Shown: positions 687 to 7,861 of the stretch, piece by piece
How positions within the stretch are numbered: the first letter of the stretch is position 1
Layout of the letters: each line of letters begins with the position of its first letter
NCBI GenBank assembly: GCA_035461765.1
Contig: DATHUY010000160.1
Span: 62,001 to 126,000 of the forward strand
DNA length: 64,000 nt
Direction: 5' to 3'
From: Longimicrobiales bacterium
GTDB taxonomy: Bacteria; Gemmatimonadota; Gemmatimonadetes; Longimicrobiales; RSA9
Made by a program: the position numbers and the translations under genes
Notes under the pieces: generated by a model
The model's database searches: none
The model's input: only the letters and a program-made list of their open reading frames with translations
What the model was told of the DNA's origin: nothing

Positions 687-2063
687 TCAGCCGGAGTTGT
701 CCCTCACCCCGGCCTCGCGCGCCCAGGTGTTCAGCGAGTGCTTGAGCAGGAGGCGGTTCTGCTCCGTGTATCTCATGCGGCGGCGCGTCCGGCCGGGCAG
801 CAGCAGTTCGAGCGTAAGCCACCCCTTCCGTCGCAAGAGATCGAAGGGTCGCATCACATACAACAGGGCCAGTCTCACCGGGGAGCGTGGCGTGCCGTAA
901 ATGGCGGCCATGCGGGCAGGCGATGGAAACATGTGCACGGCCCCCGCGCGGAATCGATGTGGCCAGCTGCCGGCACGCACCACGGATTTGAAAGCAACGG
1001 GCATAGCGATGGTGCAGTTCAGTATGTAAGCGCGCGCGTTCTCGAGCAGGCGTGCTTCGTCGGCGTCGGCTGGCAGCGACTGGATCGTGTCCGGCACCTC
1101 CGCACCGAGGATCTCTCGCGTCAGCAGGAGCGTGAAGCGGACGAAGGAATGGATGCCCCAGCGTTCTGCCGTGCCGGCGAGTAAGTCCCAGTCGATCTGA
1201 CCGTCAAATTGCCGCAGCGTGACAGCAACGTCGCAGAGTTGTTTGAGCGGCGTGTGATCGAACCTGTGGTGATAGCATGCGTGCAGGCACAGGTGCAGGA
1301 TCAGGTGCTCGGGCGACAGTCCCAGCACATCGCGACCATTCACCTGGAATGGTCTTGAGCTCGCCCAGAGCTCCGCGGGCCGAATTTCGAACGGGCTCGT
1401 CGGCAGCTCGATCGTCCAGTGCACCTCGACGCCGAGTCCCCTGCCACCGGGCGGCGCCATCCTGGGCAGATGACAGTTCGTAAGACAGAAATCGTCCAGG
1501 TCCGCAACCTCTGTGGTGTCGAAGCCAGCCTCGGTTAGAGCTCGCGAGGCATCCGCAAGGCGGTCGCGCGGAACCATGACGTCGAGGTCACCCATCGCAC
1601 GCAGGGCCGGGTCGTCGTACACGGCGGCGGCCAGGTGAAGTCCCTTGAGCAGCACCACGGGTATGCCGCGTGCCGCCAGCGCGTCGACGATAACGTCCAG
1701 CTCACGAAAAATCAGCGTGCTCCACAGTGCGCCGATGCTGTAACGCTCGCGCACCACAGCCGTGACTTCAGCGGGAACGGTGCCCACCGGGAACCTGCCG
1801 ATGCGCGCATGGATCAGGGGCAGCACACCCTGCCGCGCCGCCTCATGGGCCATGGCCATCCACGTCCCATCGTCCGTCGCAGCGACTGCGTCGGCATCGG
1901 CGCCGGCGAGTAGCTGGACCAGCAACTCCGCGGCTTTGGGCGTGGCCGTTGTCTTCGTCCCGCTCAACTTCCCCTCACAGCTGTAGCGGCGCCTTTTCGT
2001 GCGGCGCGCCCGCGACCGACCAGGCCGCCATCTGATGGTGGGCGTACGACATCGAAAATCCAC
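687..2063 (-). CDS. Nucleotidyltransferase-family protein of the lasso operon (NTP_transf_5-like)
   Basis: The protein resembles the uncharacterised nucleotidyltransferase family often found in RiPP clusters. It carries LLKG at residues 138-141 and GDLDVMV at 158-164, giving the paired Asp expected of a nucleotidyltransferase fold. It is the last gene of the lasso operon, 39 bp after the exporter. From memory, a gene of this family in the pseudomycoidin lasso cluster adds sugar to the phosphate on the tail serine, so a tail-decorating role is plausible here (inference). The N-terminus is uncertain. The GTG at 2063 gives an Arg-rich, poorly coding-like first 32 residues. A TTG at 1967 just after GAGGGG is an alternative start, although it sits very close to that site. 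Confidence 0.8.
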   Translation of the reverse strand: MDFRCRTPTIRWRPGRSRARRTKRRRYSCEGKLSGTKTTATPKAAELLVQLLAGADADAVAATDDGTWMAMAHEAARQGVLPLIHARIGRFPVGTVPAEVTAVVRERYSIGALWSTLIFRELDVIVDALAARGIPVVLLKGLHLAAAVYDDPALRAMGDLDVMVPRDRLADASRALTEAGFDTTEVADLDDFCLTNCHLPRMAPPGGRGLGVEVHWTIELPTSPFEIRPAELWASSRPFQVNGRDVLGLSPEHLILHLCLHACYHHRFDHTPLKQLCDVAVTLRQFDGQIDWDLLAGTAERWGIHSFVRFTLLLTREILGAEVPDTIQSLPADADEARLLENARAYILNCTIAMPVAFKSVVRAGSWPHRFRAGAVHMFPSPARMAAIYGTPRSPVRLALLYVMRPFDLLRRKGWLTLELLLPGRTRRRMRYTEQNRLLLKHSLNTWAREAGVRDNSG

Positions 2064-2102
2064 ATCTGCAATGTGCCAATTGCGTGCCCCTCGAAACGAG
2101 GC

Positions 2103-3917
2103 TCATCGGTAATGCCTGGCTTGCGTTTCAAAGAGGGATGCGTACACGCCGGCGCGCTCGACGAGATCTTCGTGCGCGCCGGCCTCCGCAATCCGACCAT
2201 CCACCATGACGAGAATGCGGTCGGCGCGCCGGACCGTCGACAGACGATGACTGATGAATATGGCCGTCCGATCGCGCGCCAGTTCGTCGAAGCGGTCGAA
2301 CACGGCAGCTTCCGCGCGTGGGTCGAGCGCGGCGCTGGGCTCATCGAGGATGATGATCGGTGTCTGCCGCAGGAATGCGCGCGCGAGGGCGAGCTTCTGC
2401 CACTGGCCGATGCTGAGGTCAACGCCATTCTCGAACTGGCGGCCGAGCAGAGTATCATAACCATTCGGCAGCGCGCGAATGACTTCGTCCGCGCCCGTAC
2501 GTCGTGCGGCCTCGATGATCGCATCGGAATCGACGGGTACGGACACGTTACCCAGCCAAATGTTTTCTCGAGCAGTCAGATAGAACTTCGCGTAGTCCTG
2601 GAAAACGATCGCGAAGTGGCTGCGCAGGTCGTCCACGCTGATCTCGCGCAGGTCCACGCCATCCACCCGCACGGCACCCGTTGCAGGGTCGTAGAGGCGG
2701 CACAGCAGCTTGACGAGAGTCGTCTTCCCCGACCCGTTCTCCCCGACGAGTGCAACGTGCTCGCCCGGAGCGATGGTGAAGGTGACGTTCTTCAGCACAT
2801 CCTGATCGGTACCGGGATACCGGAACGTCACGTCATCGAACTCGATGCCTGTGACGAGCGGGCTCGGAAAAGGCCGCGGTTGTGCCGGATCGACGACCGT
2901 AGGCTGGAGGCCCAGGAAGCGTACGAAATCGGCAAGGAACAGGTTGTTCTCATAAAGGTTCGCCATGCCGCGGAGTACCTCACCGAAGAAGTCCTGAGCG
3001 CGCTGGAACGCACCAAAGTACATCACGACATCTCCGACGGAGATCTCGCCGGCAAGTGCCCTCTGCGCGATGAAGAACATGGCGGCGAACACAGCCGTTA
3101 CGGTGAGCGTCTGAGCCGCCAGCTCCTGCATGCGCTGACGGGTCGTGAGTTGCAGCCGTTCTCGCCTCACCTGCTGCCGCAGGCGGCGGTGTCGCGCGCG
3201 GAACTCGTCACCGAGGCCGAATACACGCATCTCCTTGGCGTAGTCGATCGAGGTCAGGAGCGTCGTGAAGTATCGTGTCACACGCTCGATCTGCGTGCGG
3301 TTACGCGTCCACCTGTACAGTCGCGCGGAGAAGCGTGTCCTGACAAACAGGCCGGGGATTGCCGCGGCGAGCAGCGCAACTGTGAGGATCCAGTGAAACG
3401 CAAGGAGAAGTCCGGTGACTGCGAGCAGCGAGAGCCCCGCCTGACCCACCTGTGTTATGGCGGCAACGACCCGCTGCGGACGCACTGGCGCTTCGGCCTG
3501 TGCGCGCAGGAGCGCGTCATGGTACTCGGTGCTCTCGTAGAACTCGAGATCTACCTCTACGGACTTGCGGTACAGGATCTCCTGGACATGATCCGACAGT
3601 CGCAGCGACTGGACCTCTGTGACGAGAGCGGACAGGCTGCGCAGTGCAGCGCCGAGAATCGCTACGCCGCCCGCGAGCACGACCAGAAACCCCAGCCGGC
3701 TCGCGCCATCTCCGGCGGTCAAACCTGCTGCGACCGTGTCGACGATTTCCTTGAGGAGATAGAGGGCGAGAAGCGGAATGGCGCTCTGGAGCACCATCAG
3801 GGCGATCTGCGCCACGAGCCAGCGACGACCGCTCTGAAGCACGAGCACCAGGCCCTGCCGCAACGGCGACAGATCCAGGTTCGCGGGAAGCCTGCGGCGG
3901 ATCGCGGGACCGATCAT
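2103..3917 (-). CDS. Lasso-peptide ABC exporter (D protein), fused permease-ATPase
   Basis: A 604-residue half-transporter with an N-terminal membrane domain of about six helices (residues 35-320) and a C-terminal ATPase. It has Walker A GENGSGKTT (392-400), the signature LSIGQWQK, Walker B IIILDEPSAALD and a following SHRLS switch. There is no N-terminal C39 peptidase domain. That fits a lasso exporter, where the separate B2 protein cleaves the leader. The start ATG overlaps the stop of the cyclase gene by four bases (3914-3917). Its expected role is export of the mature lasso peptide across the inner membrane, giving immunity as well as secretion. Confidence 0.88.
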   Translation of the reverse strand: MIGPAIRRRLPANLDLSPLRQGLVLVLQSGRRWLVAQIALMVLQSAIPLLALYLLKEIVDTVAAGLTAGDGASRLGFLVVLAGGVAILGAALRSLSALVTEVQSLRLSDHVQEILYRKSVEVDLEFYESTEYHDALLRAQAEAPVRPQRVVAAITQVGQAGLSLLAVTGLLLAFHWILTVALLAAAIPGLFVRTRFSARLYRWTRNRTQIERVTRYFTTLLTSIDYAKEMRVFGLGDEFRARHRRLRQQVRRERLQLTTRQRMQELAAQTLTVTAVFAAMFFIAQRALAGEISVGDVVMYFGAFQRAQDFFGEVLRGMANLYENNLFLADFVRFLGLQPTVVDPAQPRPFPSPLVTGIEFDDVTFRYPGTDQDVLKNVTFTIAPGEHVALVGENGSGKTTLVKLLCRLYDPATGAVRVDGVDLREISVDDLRSHFAIVFQDYAKFYLTARENIWLGNVSVPVDSDAIIEAARRTGADEVIRALPNGYDTLLGRQFENGVDLSIGQWQKLALARAFLRQTPIIILDEPSAALDPRAEAAVFDRFDELARDRTAIFISHRLSTVRRADRILVMVDGRIAEAGAHEDLVERAGVYASLFETQARHYR

Positions 3918-5863
3918 GCGTAGGTGCCCTCGAACCAGCGGATGAAACGGCCCATCGTGATTCCGCGCAGAAGAAGCAGCGGATAGGTTCTTTCATGGAC
4001 CCGTTCGAGCCGGTCCGGCCAATGGTCTACGAGACGTCGCATTTTCGGCAGGTCGAGACATTGCCGCGCGATCTGCGATGTCTCGAGCCGGTCCAGCTCC
4101 CGACCGAAATCCGCGCGAATGGACGGCAGCCACTCCGTCCAGTCAGGCCCCTGCATTCCGTAGGTAGTCCTCAGCCGTATCTGGTCCGGCAACCGGCCTG
4201 CCATGGCGCGCCGCAGCAGAGACCGGGTCACGCCGTCCTGAAGATACTCCGACCCGGGAACCGCCATACAGAATTCCACGACGCGACGATCGGCGGTGGG
4301 ATCGCGTGTCTCGATCCCGAACCACGGCCGCAGTCCGCTGTACACATCGAACACGTCTGCTCCCGCTGCGAGGACCACCAGACGGAATTCCATTTCCGAC
4401 AGGCGATGCAGATCATGGTGATGTCGGTTTGCAGCGCGCACGCGCTCCTCCACACCCATCCGGCGGGCAAACTCCGGATGGATAGCGGACAGATTGGCAT
4501 CCCAGACGGGTTGCGGCTCGACGCCGCGCAGCCGCCGGAGCGCAGTCGAAATCGCTCCCGGAATCAGCGGCATCAGCACTTCGCGGCGAAGCACGTCGCG
4601 GCGCCCGCGTCCGCTCGTGCGGGCCAGCGCGTGCGTCTCACGCCAGACACGGCGCCATTCGGCCCGAACGGCAGAATCGCGAAGGGAGCGCAGCCCATCC
4701 TGGCTGATGGTGGCATTGCCCTTATGCCCGGAGAGCATGACACGTGTCCCTGCGTCCGCCGCCTGCGCATAAATGCCGAGGAACCATGGCATGTTGGAGG
4801 GATTCCTCGGCGGTGCGCCGCTCATGCGGAAAAACATGTCGAGGTCATCGAGCGGAGATCGGCCGTCCGTGCGCCGAATGTGCAGATCGATGGCCGGATG
4901 CATGCGCGCCAGCGCCTCGACATCGGCGGATTCATCGAGAATGGCGCCTCGGCTCGCTTGGCCTGTGTATCCCGCGCGAGGTGCGGCGTGGAAAGTCGGG
5001 AGAGTTCGTCCCTGCTCCCGGAGCTGGTCCGCCGCCACGGCTGCGACGGACGCCGAATCCAGGCCTCCGCTGGCCATCATGCTTATGGTTCCGGCGCTGC
5101 GCAGTTGCGATCGCACGGCCGCATCGAACACAGCGACAAAGGCCTCGACATACTCGTGACTCGAGAGTCGGAGCATGCGGCGCGGCGCCGGCGACCAGTA
5201 TCGTTCAATGCGGATCCCCGTTCGGCTGGCCGTGAGCGTATGACCCGGTGGGAGCCGATGTATGCCGCGGAAGAAAGAACTCTCTGGTCGCTGGAGCAGC
5301 ACCAGGAAATCTGCGACCTTCTGCTCATCGAGCGCGGCAGTCACATGCGGCAGGCAGGCAAGCGCATGCGGCGTGGTCGCGAGCTCGACGCCGTGTGGCG
5401 ATTCGTGATAGAACAGCACGCGCTGGCCCATGGCATCGCGCGCACAGAACAGTTCCCGGGACCCCGCGTCCCACACGGCGAACGCATAATCGCCCACGAC
5501 ATGCCGTGGGCATTCATGCTTCCACTGCTGCCACGCCGCCAGCACGAGTGCTGCGTCGGACAGGCCGGTCGCTTCCCGCGACGAAATTCCAAGTGCGGCG
5601 GTCAGCTCGTCACGATTGTCGATCCGCGCATCGACGACCACGACGACCGCATCGCCGGCTGCTCGCTCGGGCCCCCGGTAGTGAACATCTTCCGGAGTCA
5701 CCCGCCACGGAATGCAGCCGAGCGCGACCGGCGAGGCGACGTCGTCCGGTGCCCAGTACGACGCGCCATCGCCGTACTCGCGCATGGCGCCAAGCAGAGT
5801 TTCCGGAACCGTGGCTGGCACCGGGGCGCCGTCCCATCGATACCCCGCGCAAATCGCACTCAT
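3914..5863 (-). CDS. Lasso-peptide cyclase (C protein), asparagine-synthetase-like
   Basis: A 649-residue protein built like asparagine synthetase B. The N-terminal glutaminase-like domain covers roughly residues 1-220. The C-terminal ATP-pyrophosphatase domain contains the PP-loop SGGLDS at 265-270. The nucleophilic Cys2 of true asparagine synthetases is absent (the protein starts MSAIC), so ammonia production from glutamine is not expected. In lasso biosynthesis this enzyme adenylates an Asp or Glu side chain of the core peptide and joins it to the N-terminal amine to close the ring. The gene sits between B2 (27-bp gap) and the exporter (4-bp overlap), the canonical neighbourhood. Confidence 0.92.
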   Translation of the reverse strand: MSAICAGYRWDGAPVPATVPETLLGAMREYGDGASYWAPDDVASPVALGCIPWRVTPEDVHYRGPERAAGDAVVVVVDARIDNRDELTAALGISSREATGLSDAALVLAAWQQWKHECPRHVVGDYAFAVWDAGSRELFCARDAMGQRVLFYHESPHGVELATTPHALACLPHVTAALDEQKVADFLVLLQRPESSFFRGIHRLPPGHTLTASRTGIRIERYWSPAPRRMLRLSSHEYVEAFVAVFDAAVRSQLRSAGTISMMASGGLDSASVAAVAADQLREQGRTLPTFHAAPRAGYTGQASRGAILDESADVEALARMHPAIDLHIRRTDGRSPLDDLDMFFRMSGAPPRNPSNMPWFLGIYAQAADAGTRVMLSGHKGNATISQDGLRSLRDSAVRAEWRRVWRETHALARTSGRGRRDVLRREVLMPLIPGAISTALRRLRGVEPQPVWDANLSAIHPEFARRMGVEERVRAANRHHHDLHRLSEMEFRLVVLAAGADVFDVYSGLRPWFGIETRDPTADRRVVEFCMAVPGSEYLQDGVTRSLLRRAMAGRLPDQIRLRTTYGMQGPDWTEWLPSIRADFGRELDRLETSQIARQCLDLPKMRRLVDHWPDRLERVHERTYPLLLLRGITMGRFIRWFEGTYA

Positions 5864-5890
5864 CGCGACAATCGTCCTTCCCTCGCGACG

Positions 5891-6322
5891 TCAGGCGAAA
5901 GTGGAGACGACAATATAGCGTCCCGGATCATCGCCGCCCGTCACGATGACGCTCCCGGCGCGCACCCAGGCGTGGGCATTGTACTGGTTTGCGGGATCGG
6001 TTCCGAGGTAGAGCGTGCTCTGGATTCCGCGACGGCGCAGCATCCACTGGGCCGTGACCGCCTGCGGCAGGCAGACCGGTTTCCAGGGGAGCCTGCGCGC
6101 TGAAGCGGCCACGGCCCACGCGACAAGCCGGACCGCGGCCATGCTGTCCCGAGCCTGGTGTGACGGACTTTCCGACATGTGCCGGCCGAGACGGGCGGCG
6201 ACGCGTGAGAACCGCATGACACGCAACATGATGCTCGCGGCAGTGCAGAGCGCGAGTGCTTCGGCAAGCGCGACCGCTTCAGGTCCGGTCAGACGAGGAA
6301 GTCGCCTCATCCGCTTCGCCAT
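5891..6322 (-). CDS. Lasso leader peptidase (B2), transglutaminase-like
   Basis: A 143-residue protein with the C-terminal core typical of lasso B2 proteases. Trp80 and Cys84 lie in WKPVCLPQAVTAQWMLRRRG. The catalytic His is at 117 in YNAHAWVRAG, and acidic residues follow near 131. Cys and His form the protease active site that removes the leader from the precursor. It overlaps the B1 gene by up to 44 bp in another frame. An internal ATG at 6310 would shorten this only slightly. B1 and B2 are split here, as in Gram-positive and paeninodin-type clusters, rather than fused as in McjB of microcin J25. Confidence 0.9.
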   Translation of the reverse strand: MAKRMRRLPRLTGPEAVALAEALALCTAASIMLRVMRFSRVAARLGRHMSESPSHQARDSMAAVRLVAWAVAASARRLPWKPVCLPQAVTAQWMLRRRGIQSTLYLGTDPANQYNAHAWVRAGSVIVTGGDDPGRYIVVSTFA

Positions 6323-6635
6323 GGATGCGAATGAGCTGCGCAGCGCGTAGCTCTTCGAGGAAACGGAGCACTTCGCGCCGGCAGGCGTCGGCAGCGATAT
6401 CGAACTCCTGTGTCAGCGCTTCGCACACGTCGCTCACCCTGCGAGGCCTGTCGAGCAGCGCCCAGATCCGCGACCCCACGCCCTCCAGACCGAAATACAT
6501 CCCCTGGTCGATGCTCATCATCACCACGGTTCCGTCCACCTCGACCGCCACAGGCTCGTCGCTGCGGGCGACAACGGTCTGAAGCCCGATCTCGCTGCTG
6601 GCGCTCACTATGCCTCTCTCGCTACTGGCGCTCAC
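6279..6635 (-). CDS. Lasso leader-recognition protein (B1), PqqD/RRE fold
   Basis: A 118-residue PqqD-like protein. The diagnostic stretch YFGLEGVGSRIW (residues 47-58) matches the Y-L-x-x-V-G-x-x-I-W pattern of RiPP recognition elements. The rest supplies the winged helix that binds the leader and presents it to B2. The GTG start at 6635 shares its G with the TAG stop of the kinase gene, so translation is tightly coupled. The first 24 bp are directly repeated 27 bp downstream. This gives a second in-frame GTG at 6608 and the repeated residues SASSE at 2-6 and 11-15. Confidence 0.9.
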   Translation of the reverse strand: MSASSERGIVSASSEIGLQTVVARSDEPVAVEVDGTVVMMSIDQGMYFGLEGVGSRIWALLDRPRRVSDVCEALTQEFDIAADACRREVLRFLEELRAAQLIRIHGEADEATSSSDRT

Positions 6636-6640
6636 TATGC
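6590..6640. repeat. 24-bp direct repeat over the B1 start site
   Basis: Two copies at 6590-6613 and 6617-6640 differ at one base and have a period of 27 bp (nine codons). Each copy carries the ATAGTGAGCG start context on the minus strand, so the kinase-stop/B1-start junction is duplicated in frame. Slippage or unequal exchange is the simplest origin. Confidence 0.85.
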
Positions 6641-7654
6641 GTCCGGATTCTTCTTGCTGCGTTTGCCGCCGAAGCCGCCTGCATCGCGCTCGATCAGGTC
6701 GAGCACCGCGTCGAGGTGTTCGAAGCCGCGCGGTCTGATCAGCCTCTTCACGGTCACTGTCCGAGACAGCTCTGCAGCTTTCCTGAAAATCGCCGTCGAT
6801 AATCCCATATCCGACGCGAAAGCCAGGAGATACGTCTCGTCGACGAGTGCCGAGATCGCTTCCAGCCCGCGCAGTTCCTCCACGCGCGGCTCTCCCTCAC
6901 CGAACTCGAGGAGATATACACAGGAAAGCGGAACGGGATCGGTCGGCGTCGCGGACGTGGACACGGGCACGTGATACTTACCCCGATTGCCGCCTGCGGG
7001 CTCCAGTCCGGTGCACTCGCTGTCGAGCGCCGCCATTCCCGTCGCATCCAGCTTCAAGCGCAGGGCGCCGGGCCACACGCCTGTTTGGCCAGCGCAAATC
7101 TCCGTCATCACACAGATGTCGTCCGTCACGAACGCGGCACCCCGCCGCAGCAGGGCCCCGACCAGCGTCGACTTGCCGCCTCCCGACGCCGCGGCAAATG
7201 CAACGCCGCTACCCTCGACAGCCACGCAGCTGGCATGCAGCGGCAGAATGCCTCGCTGGTGCAGGATCACGCCCAGCATTGCGCCCGTGAGGTAGAGCCG
7301 CACGTCCTCCGGCCTGGCACCAGGCTCGGCGGCTACGCGAATGCACGAGCCGCCGCTAGCCGTGTACTGCGCCACTCCGTGCACCTGGAGGCGGACTTCA
7401 CGATCCTCGATGACCGACCGGGCGCCATACATAACTCCGTCAGACCTCGCATGCATATCCGGCTCCGCGAGGATGAGGACCTCCGGCTCCTCCCCCGCCC
7501 GATGCAGCGGCCACTCCGACAGATCGATCGCCGATCGCACCCGCAGCCCATACATGCTGAAATCGCACACTCCGGCCGAAGCGGTTTGGGCCACCCCATT
7601 CGGCGCGTGGCGCTGTCGGTCGGATTCCGCACTACGCCGCGTCGGTGTTTTCAT
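6635..7654 (-). CDS. HPr-kinase-like lasso-peptide serine kinase
   Basis: A 339-residue protein that resembles the C-terminal kinase domain of HPr kinase/phosphorylase. It has LPLHAS near residue 137-142, the P-loop ASGGGKST at 156-163 and an Asp-Asp pair at 178-179 (FVTDDICVM). In paeninodin-type lasso clusters such a kinase phosphorylates the C-terminal Ser of the precursor (established for the family). The precursor here ends in Ser, which supports the same reaction. The ATG at 7654 is preferred because AGGA precedes it and because the upstream alternative at 7735 would read through a strong intercistronic hairpin. It is not expected to act on HPr. Confidence 0.88.
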   Translation of the reverse strand: MKTPTRRSAESDRQRHAPNGVAQTASAGVCDFSMYGLRVRSAIDLSEWPLHRAGEEPEVLILAEPDMHARSDGVMYGARSVIEDREVRLQVHGVAQYTASGGSCIRVAAEPGARPEDVRLYLTGAMLGVILHQRGILPLHASCVAVEGSGVAFAAASGGGKSTLVGALLRRGAAFVTDDICVMTEICAGQTGVWPGALRLKLDATGMAALDSECTGLEPAGGNRGKYHVPVSTSATPTDPVPLSCVYLLEFGEGEPRVEELRGLEAISALVDETYLLAFASDMGLSTAIFRKAAELSRTVTVKRLIRPRGFEHLDAVLDLIERDAGGFGGKRSKKNPDA

Positions 7655-7676
7655 GTCACTATCCTGATCCAGACGG

Positions 7677-7714
7677 TCAATGCCCTCCGTTCTGAGCAGC
7701 ACGGAGGGCATTGA
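7677..7714 (-). terminator. Perfect 14-bp intercistronic hairpin after the lasso precursor
   Basis: TCAATGCCCTCCGT at 7677-7690 pairs perfectly with 7701-7714 around a 10-base loop. It lies between the precursor stop (7745) and the kinase start (7654). No T-run follows on either strand, so it may act as a partial terminator or an mRNA-stabilising stem that keeps precursor mRNA in excess over the enzyme genes. This is common in RiPP operons. Confidence 0.7.
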
Positions 7715-7744
7715 TGAGAGGCCCGGTTTTTTCAAAGCCAGAAC

Positions 7745-7861
7745 TTAGCTCTGTACCGGGTACTCGCCGCCGAGTGCGTCGTTGTTGGTGCCAGCTCCCT
7801 GAGCTGTCTCGCTCACGGGCTTGCGGACCAGCACGGGTCGGACCCATGTGGCTTTGGTCAT
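7745..7861 (-). CDS. Lasso-peptide precursor, 38 residues, C-terminal Ser
   Basis: The start ATG at 7861 follows a near-perfect ribosome site (GGAGG, 5-6 bases before it). The leader carries the B1 recognition motif WVRPVL (residues 6-11), equivalent to Y-x-x-P-x-L. A Thr at 19 fits the conserved penultimate leader position. Leader cleavage after Ala20 would give the 18-residue core QGAGTNNDALGGEYPVQS. Its G-x-G-T pattern resembles paeninodin, and Asp28 would be core position 8 for ring closure. The C-terminal Ser38 is the expected site for the neighbouring kinase. A start at 7975 would only add a non-leader-like N-terminus. Gln at core position 1 is unusual; cleavage one or two residues away is possible. 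Confidence 0.88.
   Translation of the reverse strand: MTKATWVRPVLVRKPVSETAQGAGTNNDALGGEYPVQS

Follow-up and report, generated by a model that had tools for sequence, protein, structure and literature searches.

A lasso peptide operon with a predicted tail kinase and a nucleotidyltransferase-like enzyme in a Gemmatimonadota genome

Seven genes and a stem-loop

The stretch of 64,000 nucleotides analyzed here (the window) comes from a Longimicrobiales bacterium of the phylum Gemmatimonadota and carries, from position 7861 to 687 on the minus strand, an operon for a lasso peptide. Seven consecutive, tightly packed open reading frames (ORFs), A-K-B1-B2-C-D-N, were identified there from the ORF list and translations, and all seven frames are open (Table 1). 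A and K are separated by a gap of 90 bases, K and B1 overlap by 1 base and B1 and B2 by 44. Further along, a gap of 27 bases lies between B2 and C, C and D overlap by 4 bases, and D and N are 39 bases apart.

Table 1. Features of the lasso peptide operon in window positions; gene coordinates include the stop codons.
Feature	Coordinates	Strand	Assignment	Evidence
Gene A	7745..7861	-	lasso precursor, 38 amino acids + stop	ORF and GGAGGA ribosome-binding site; register compared with relatives
Stem-loop	7677..7714	-	14-bp stem-loop in the A-K gap, 3' of the A stop	z -3.06 and -3.71 (two runs)
Gene K	6635..7654	-	HPr-kinase-like precursor kinase	weak HPrK match, motif, PEPCK/HPrK fold, tree
Gene B1	6279..6635	-	PqqD-like leader-binding (RRE) protein	family scans and TbiB1 match
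Gene B2	5891..6322	-	transglutaminase-like leader peptidase	NF033537, 99.6 bits
Gene C	3914..5863	-	asparagine-synthetase-like lasso cyclase	SGGLDS motif, family scans, tree
Gene D	2103..3917	-	ABC exporter (permease + ATPase)	family scans
Gene N	687..2063	-	NTP_transf_5 (PF14907) nucleotidyltransferase-like enzyme	185.4 bits, catalytic acids, fold

Scans against Pfam and NCBIfam found B1, a transglutaminase-like B2 and an asparagine-synthetase-like C together, the combination that marks a lasso cluster. B1 scored 69.2 bits against PqqD (cut-off 23.4) and 75.1 against lasso_PqqD_Bac (cut-off 80), and matched in sequence TbiB1, a protein of solved structure (PDB 5v1u/5v1v), at 1.3e-13. B2 is over the equivalog cut-off of 33 for lasso_biosyn_B2 (NCBIfam). 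The translation of C scored 102.2 against Asn_synthase (cut-off 21) and 372.3 against lass_lactam_cya (cut-off 525); B1 and C fall short only of the cut-offs of NCBIfam "exception" models. D reached 109.9 bits against ABC_tran (cut-off 25), N is over the NTP_transf_5 cut-off of 31.2, and K matched Hpr_kinase_C at 4.6e-6 with 26.7 bits, under the Pfam cut-off of 33.3. A chance run of seven genes was rejected on the open frames, the overlaps, the family matches and the related loci, a judgement made without a computed probability. Read from its genes alone, the operon is confirmed as a complete lasso peptide biosynthetic cluster. The original prediction had described seven co-directional genes at this place and strand as a lasso operon of the paeninodin type; the ORFs and family scans bear this out, and its gene assignments agree with the Pfam and NCBIfam matches, the K and N motifs and the similarity to TbiB1.

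The precursor and its core register

Gene A matches no Pfam or NCBIfam model. It was called from its position, the ribosome-binding site directly 5' of its ATG, related short ORFs and the hairpin downstream, and from features of the peptide: the leader motif, Thr at -2, the acidic residue at core position 8 and the Ser at the C-terminus. The translation divides into the leader MTKATWVRPVLVRKPVSETA and the predicted core QGAGTNNDALGGEYPVQS, in which Gln1 and Asp8 would form the ring and a 10-residue tail ends in Ser18, the terminal serine that the original prediction had noted. In this preferred register the leader motif W..P.L falls on Trp(-15), Pro(-12) and Leu(-10), and the aromatic..Pro motif, Thr(-2) and an acid within core positions 7-9 occur together, with the aromatic residue two residues nearer than the published -17. 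The core holds one Ser (18) and one Thr (5), and residue 3 is Ala.

For comparison, 94 related loci were drawn by similarity, and counts among them are not natural frequencies: 15 Gemmatimonadota loci by similarity to the window cyclase, and 79 others by similarity to nine lasso cyclases headed by that of the window. The wider genome scan kept the best 80 of at least 429 relatives, and L072 was then dropped as the same record as L022. That locus, of the same class as the window, is identical to QHTT01000126.1 from a Gemmatimonadetes bacterium, which supports the Gemmatimonadota origin proposed from the letters. Precursors were sought in 95 related loci and the window; candidates were short ORFs that had a ribosome-binding site, carried the aromatic..Pro motif and placed an acid at one of core positions 7-9. 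The scan picked a core start 15, 16 or 17 residues past the aromatic residue and favored Thr(-2) and rings of 8 or 9; in several rows, for example L059 and L063, the automatic start may be off by one or two residues. Among the 75 rows kept the spacing is 17 in 41, 16 in 9 and 15 in 25, the window being one of the latter.

Independently of the choice of start, Thr and Asp follow the window's Trp at distances of 13 and 22 residues. Thr at 13 recurs in 15 of the 74 other rows, six of which also have an acid at 22 (four of L067 and two of L073, both Pseudomonas loci), as in L073, YQAPSLVRLDLAETE/AGGPGITD, aligned with the window, WVRPVLVRKPVSETA/QGAGTNND. Two Gemmatimonadota precursors (L023, L024) have Thr at 13 and an acid at 23. 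A spacing of 17 in the window would leave no acid at core 7-9. The Gln1-Asp8 ring with a tail ending in Ser18 is the best register, supported by these comparisons as a prediction. The predicted core sequence is new among the loci examined, in keeping with the new peptide that had been anticipated. Six loci (L048, L049, L051, L068, L084 and L085) have Trp-type leaders with Ala(-2) in place of Thr and, in the automatic register, V, L, A, A, N and D, respectively, as core residue 1.

Within 90 bases past the precursor stop, folds with z < -2 against shuffles recur in 35 of 75 related precursors (z < -3 in 23 of 75; mean -2.06), and because of this recurrence a downstream fold seems to be a class feature of such precursors. 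The A-K stem-loop would probably act as an mRNA stabilizer or attenuator. Expression strategies in the available part of a review include hairpin removal for astexin-1 and replacement of the capA-capB gap (PMC7549694).

Kinase K and its predicted target

The translation of K has His140, Gly158, Gly160, Lys161, Ser162, Asp178 and Asp179, which match by spacing the residues listed for BsfK. K was aligned with 31 kinases chosen from 67 listed stretches, and in this selected set the His, G160-K161-S162 and the first Asp are present in 32/32 and the second Asp in 31/32. K is accordingly HPrK-like in its His, P-loop GKS and DD, and carries Ala155 at the first P-loop Gly. The structural model of K (pLDDT 87.6) matches PEP carboxykinase and HPr kinase structures, and a solved-structure search returned one weak HPrK row (E 0.084).

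Lasso kinases are described with two outcomes in the passages available: phosphorylation of the C-terminal Ser in paeninodin and its relatives (PadeK) and in pseudomycoidin (PsmK) (PMC9266682, PMC8498205), and action on core Ser3 by BsfK, from a cluster of the same gene content (PMC10368454). We placed K in a tree of 87 kinase rows, in which the named PadeK, PsmK and BsfK are not included. Rows are related to one another, and labels were given per locus, any Ser-ending precursor yielding C_Ser. The window kinase lies in a supported 43-row set (98/97) with 33 C_Ser rows including its own, 1 C_Thr, 9 unknown and 0 other; the remaining 44 rows comprise 9 C_Ser, 1 C_Thr, all 14 "other" and 20 unknown. 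In some of the "other" precursors a single residue follows the Ser (GSL, SSL, GSI).

Sixty-nine precursors were kept at loci with K, 48 of them ending in Ser; four chance ORFs (L022, L026, L080, L089) were dropped by eye, leaving 65. Ser is the last residue in 46 of the 65 (window included) and Thr in 3, and at interior tail positions Ser occurs in 48 of 642; 19 of the 65 have no C-terminal Ser. For the present precursor, Ser18 is likely to be the phosphorylation site of K, because the kinase branch is Ser/Thr-only, core residue 3 is Ala and Ser18 is the sole core Ser; the position in the kinase tree is stronger evidence on the site than the contrast between loci. The precursor ends in Ser, as in the paeninodin type. 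Features of the Bsf type are absent in the preferred register, with Ala rather than Ser or Thr at core 3 and Thr rather than Ile at -2. The original prediction took phosphorylation of the C-terminal Ser as a property of kinase-containing lasso clusters. As a general rule this was rejected, given BsfK on Ser3 and the 19/65 other endings; for this particular site it is supported by the Ser/Thr-only branch and Ala3.

The nucleotidyltransferase-like enzyme N

N was aligned with 36 of the 46 N proteins found (the set of 37 includes the window, and ten near-copies were left out by eye). Lys140, Gly141, Tyr149, Asp159 and Asp161 are invariant (37/37), and residue 213 is Glu or Asp in 37/37, Glu in the window. 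We take Asp159, Asp161 and Glu213 to be the three acids expected of a polymerase-beta-type nucleotidyltransferase; the operon's NTP_transf_5 gene has intact active-site residues. The model of N has a pLDDT of 82.9. Its true start may be later than called, because model confidence is low over the first 31 residues.

A sequence search of solved structures with N gave nothing at E <= 1, and Foldseek with the N model gave nothing at E <= 0.001, the best match being ANT(2'')-Ia at 1.2e-3. Re-examination of the Foldseek list placed the model closest to MenT1 (Z 15.6, root-mean-square deviation 2.7, 180 aligned) and ANT(2'')-Ia (Z 13.5, 3.4, 177 aligned), with FKRP lower (Z 9.4, 3.6, 145 aligned). 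FKRP transfers a phospho-sugar from CDP-ribitol, and its structure was solved with CDP-ribitol and a sugar acceptor, according to the structure title. The predicted fold of N is that of nucleotide-transferring enzymes, with FKRP as a possible precedent for phospho-sugar transfer. Such likeness between a model and known folds leaves undecided whether the donor of N would be a sugar or a nucleotide.

Among characterized relatives, PsmN is described in the available passages as adding one or two hexoses to phosphorylated pseudomycoidin in E. coli, with nucleotidylation followed by a host glycosyltransferase also possible (PMC9266682, PMC8498205). For BsfN, the authors report no evidence on function or timing in the available part of the paper (PMC10368454). 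The suggestion in the original prediction that the peptide may be glycosylated draws on this one cellular result for PsmN, and the predicted fold of N is nearest to nucleotidyltransferases.

K is present in 43 of the 46 loci with N and in 36 of the 48 loci without it (Fisher p 0.022; rows not independent). The N loci in which K was not found are L043 and L084, each with its cyclase at a contig end, and L068. Since K is enriched in N loci, the co-occurrence fits an enzyme N that acts after K, on the product of K, and it suggests this weakly because the rows are related. It is conceivable, if on balance rather unlikely, that N is a phosphotransferase of nucleotidyltransferase fold, the peptide phosphate attacking an activated donor, so that the lasso tail would carry a cap linked through phosphate or pyrophosphate. 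The same tentative proposal would have as the cap either a nucleotide, as with the MenT and ANT enzymes, or a phospho-sugar, as with FKRP and CDP-ribitol. If this were so, kinase and N would together form a module, widespread across phyla, that caps the tail in two steps, and capping would have as one of its outcomes the hexoses observed with PsmN in E. coli. The chemistry of N is the most interesting part of the system.

A proposed pathway and its alternatives

Directly observed are the genes, the active-site residues kept in K and N, and where the proteins fall in the trees. We consider it probable that the product of the operon is a single lasso peptide whose tail is decorated, Ser18 being phosphorylated by K and then capped by N. 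By analogy with characterized relatives, from which each chemical step and the order are taken, precursor A would be translated from its own strong ribosome-binding site, and B1 would recognize Trp(-15), Pro(-12) and Leu(-10) of the leader, bind it and present it. K would phosphorylate the C-terminal Ser18, B2 would cleave past Ala(-1), beside Thr(-2), and C would activate Asp8 with ATP and link it to the Gln1 amine around the threaded tail. N would then cap the new phosphate with a sugar, a phospho-sugar or a nucleotide, and D would export the product.

Several observations weigh against this pathway. The agreement in register is partly built into the precursor scan, and the window's spacing of 15 is a minority beside the published spacing of 17, found in 41/75. 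Gln1 is unusual in characterized lasso peptides, occurs in 9/65 K-locus rows (window included, automatic register) and could cyclize to pyroglutamate at the N-terminus. Cleavage may also fall elsewhere: past Gln21 with Ala(-2), giving a 17-residue core with a 7-residue ring, Gly1-Asp7. Ala(-2) is found in 13 of the 25 spacing-15 rows, the six loci named above included, and published predictions include such precursors (Kretsch 2023, cited in the available text of PMC10368454). Those six relatives, however, place the aromatic residue at -15 and offer an acid at core position 8 or 9; applied to the window, this spacing yields Thr(-2) and Asp8. A 7-residue ring is moreover the sole option in 2/65 rows, although the scan favored 8 and 9. 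We regard the shorter ring as quite unlikely.

The kinase invites further doubt. No other tree row exceeds 36% identity to K, whose branch is 1.37 long and whose Pfam score lies below cut-off. Ala155 stands where 30/32 aligned kinases carry Gly and occupies, by spacing, the place of G163 in BsfK, where exchange for Ala lowered solubility and activity (available passages of PMC10368454). The tree rows are dependent through kinship. At loci without detected K, some of them short or cut by contig ends, 7/10 precursors still end in Ser, so in this sample loci with and without K cannot be told apart by a Ser ending. The long branch and Ala155 would suit an operon that is silent or decayed, its frames intact, K or N inactive and a plain lasso peptide or nothing being made. 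So would the report that no lasso peptide could be detected from the Bsf cluster, whose gene content is the most similar, in several heterologous hosts (same paper, as far as available). Against such decay, the seven frames are open, K keeps His140, GKS and DD, N its three acids and C the SGGLDS motif, and we give this explanation little probability.

The example of BsfK, which phosphorylates core Ser3 in a cluster of the same gene set (PMC10368454, in part), also allows a kinase that targets a ring-region residue, here Thr5, or the leader, with N capping at that place. The 19/65 K-locus precursors with other endings are in accord with this, as K evidently does not always need a C-terminal Ser. 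The window nevertheless has Ala at core 3 and Thr(-2) in place of the Ile(-2) of Bsf, and its kinase belongs to a branch whose labelled rows all have Ser- or Thr-ending precursors (BsfK is not among the tree rows), which makes modification away from the tail very unlikely. Phosphorylation of Ser18 and capping by N remains our preferred pathway. The operon would then add a probably phospho-capped Gemmatimonadota lasso peptide with a divergent kinase and a core unmet in the loci examined. The comparative set sharpens two questions, namely which kinases target the C-terminal Ser and which reaction the conserved nucleotidyltransferase catalyzes. According to the available parts of two reviews, the benefit of lasso tail decoration is not yet clear (PMC9266682, PMC7533575).

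Distribution, origin and surroundings

Of the 94 related loci, K is present in 79, N in 46 and the two together in 43, and 41 contain K, N, B1 and B2. Pseudomonadota, Cyanobacteriota, Chloroflexota, Acidobacteriota and Myxococcota are among the phyla represented. Judged by these matches, the kinase and nucleotidyltransferase gene set is widespread among related loci, and the window represents a known kind (paeninodin/pseudomycoidin/Bsf type) with a new predicted core. In rumen bacteria, HPr kinase and an uncharacterized nucleotidyltransferase are likewise reported with lasso clusters (PMC7533575, in part). The limited passages of literature that pair "lasso peptide" with the phylum name describe no Gemmatimonadota lasso cluster; this is not a claim of absence from print.

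A cyclase match at E <= 1e-40 was found in 14 of 298 genomes of the phylum, the window's own included, and the sole other genome of the genus has none at that threshold. In a quick cyclase tree of 98 rows, the window's cyclase falls in a starred 38-row set with 31 Pseudomonadota and has at most 38% identity to another row. The second cyclase of the genome (L021, on a long branch) joins the Gemmatimonadota row L033 (97*). Horizontal acquisition of the operon is, we infer, the simplest reading, with the caveats of sampled best rows, long branches and the lack of a clean empty site, for which four genomes of the family (G006, G187, G051, G284) were inspected. In all four, the GntR and Band_7 genes that form the left flank of the operon are adjacent. 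No relative of the window cyclase was found at E <= 1e-40 in G006, G051 and G284, and the one in G187 is on a different contig. Because relatives of the right-flank (Wzi-like) gene sit on other contigs, insertion at this spot is inferred only. The G+C content of K, D and N is 0.63-0.65, compared with mostly 0.65-0.70 along the window in 4-kb steps; other low stretches occur near 30-36 kb, so composition tells little about origin.

The GntR and Band_7 genes lie to the left of N, and a Wzi-like gene and two amidohydrolases on the plus strand to the right of A. Known lasso isopeptidases are prolyl-oligopeptidase-like. Of nine flanking genes scanned, eight have a family and none is prolyl-oligopeptidase-like; the gene at 15749 matches nothing. 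Several translations between 27950 and 40241 of the window read as sugar-transferase-like, with G+C of 0.64-0.65 near 30-36 kb, and leave the impression of perhaps a surface-polysaccharide island.

Other lasso loci

The window's own genome contains a second lasso cluster (L021, 5827-8550), read from translations, with B1, B2, C and the precursor MEKKPYTPPTITEHGDAVKETK/GFGGEYWEIMSAKNTSDVKVDW; genes for a response regulator and a histidine kinase lie close by. Neither K nor N was found by tblastn in 18 kb around it, and its peptide ends in Trp; it is a natural contrast to the window's cluster. In the Gemmatimonadota loci L023 and L024, B1 and B2 are divergent from C, a second B1-like domain lies in a long ORF past the precursor, K and N are present, and the precursors end in Ile or Val, not Ser. 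L026 has, at 7622-7813, a possible Trp-type precursor ending GPS on the strand opposite C, K, B1 and B2, and in the tree its kinase falls on the same side as that of the window. Lasso clusters were also noticed in L050 and L069, in bins titled Akkermansia muciniphila and Klebsiella pneumoniae; their kinase neighbors are Acidovorax and Acidobacteria rows, and the bins may be mislabelled or mixed.

Comparison with known systems

The following comparisons with the pade and psm clusters are by description only, from the available passages of the papers cited. The paeninodin cluster of Paenibacillus dendritiformis (pade) likewise combines an HPrK-like kinase and B1, B2 and C with a class II precursor that ends in Ser (PMC9266682). 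In addition the window has N, of which those passages make no mention for pade, and its leader motif contains a Trp. Kinase and nucleotidyltransferase are common to the window and the pseudomycoidin cluster (psm) of Bacillus pseudomycoides (PMC9266682, PMC8498205). The latter belongs to the Firmicutes, where such an N sits between B2 and D and is several times fused to B2, whereas N is the last gene of the present operon (PMC8498205).

The Bsf cluster of the Gram-negative Bradymonas sediminis shares all seven gene types (A, K, B1, B2, C, D and N) with the present operon. It differs, in the text available, in a C-terminal Asp, phosphorylated Ser3, Ile(-2) and Tyr(-17), against C-terminal Ser, Ala3, Thr(-2) and Trp(-15) in the window (PMC10368454). 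In L051 (Sphingomonas), L049 (Croceibacterium) and L073 (Pseudomonas), K and N accompany similar precursors: Trp or Tyr occupies -15, position 8 or 9 is acidic, and the short tail ends in Ser. L049 and L051 have Ala(-2), and the kinases and cyclases of all three loci share the window's supported tree sets.

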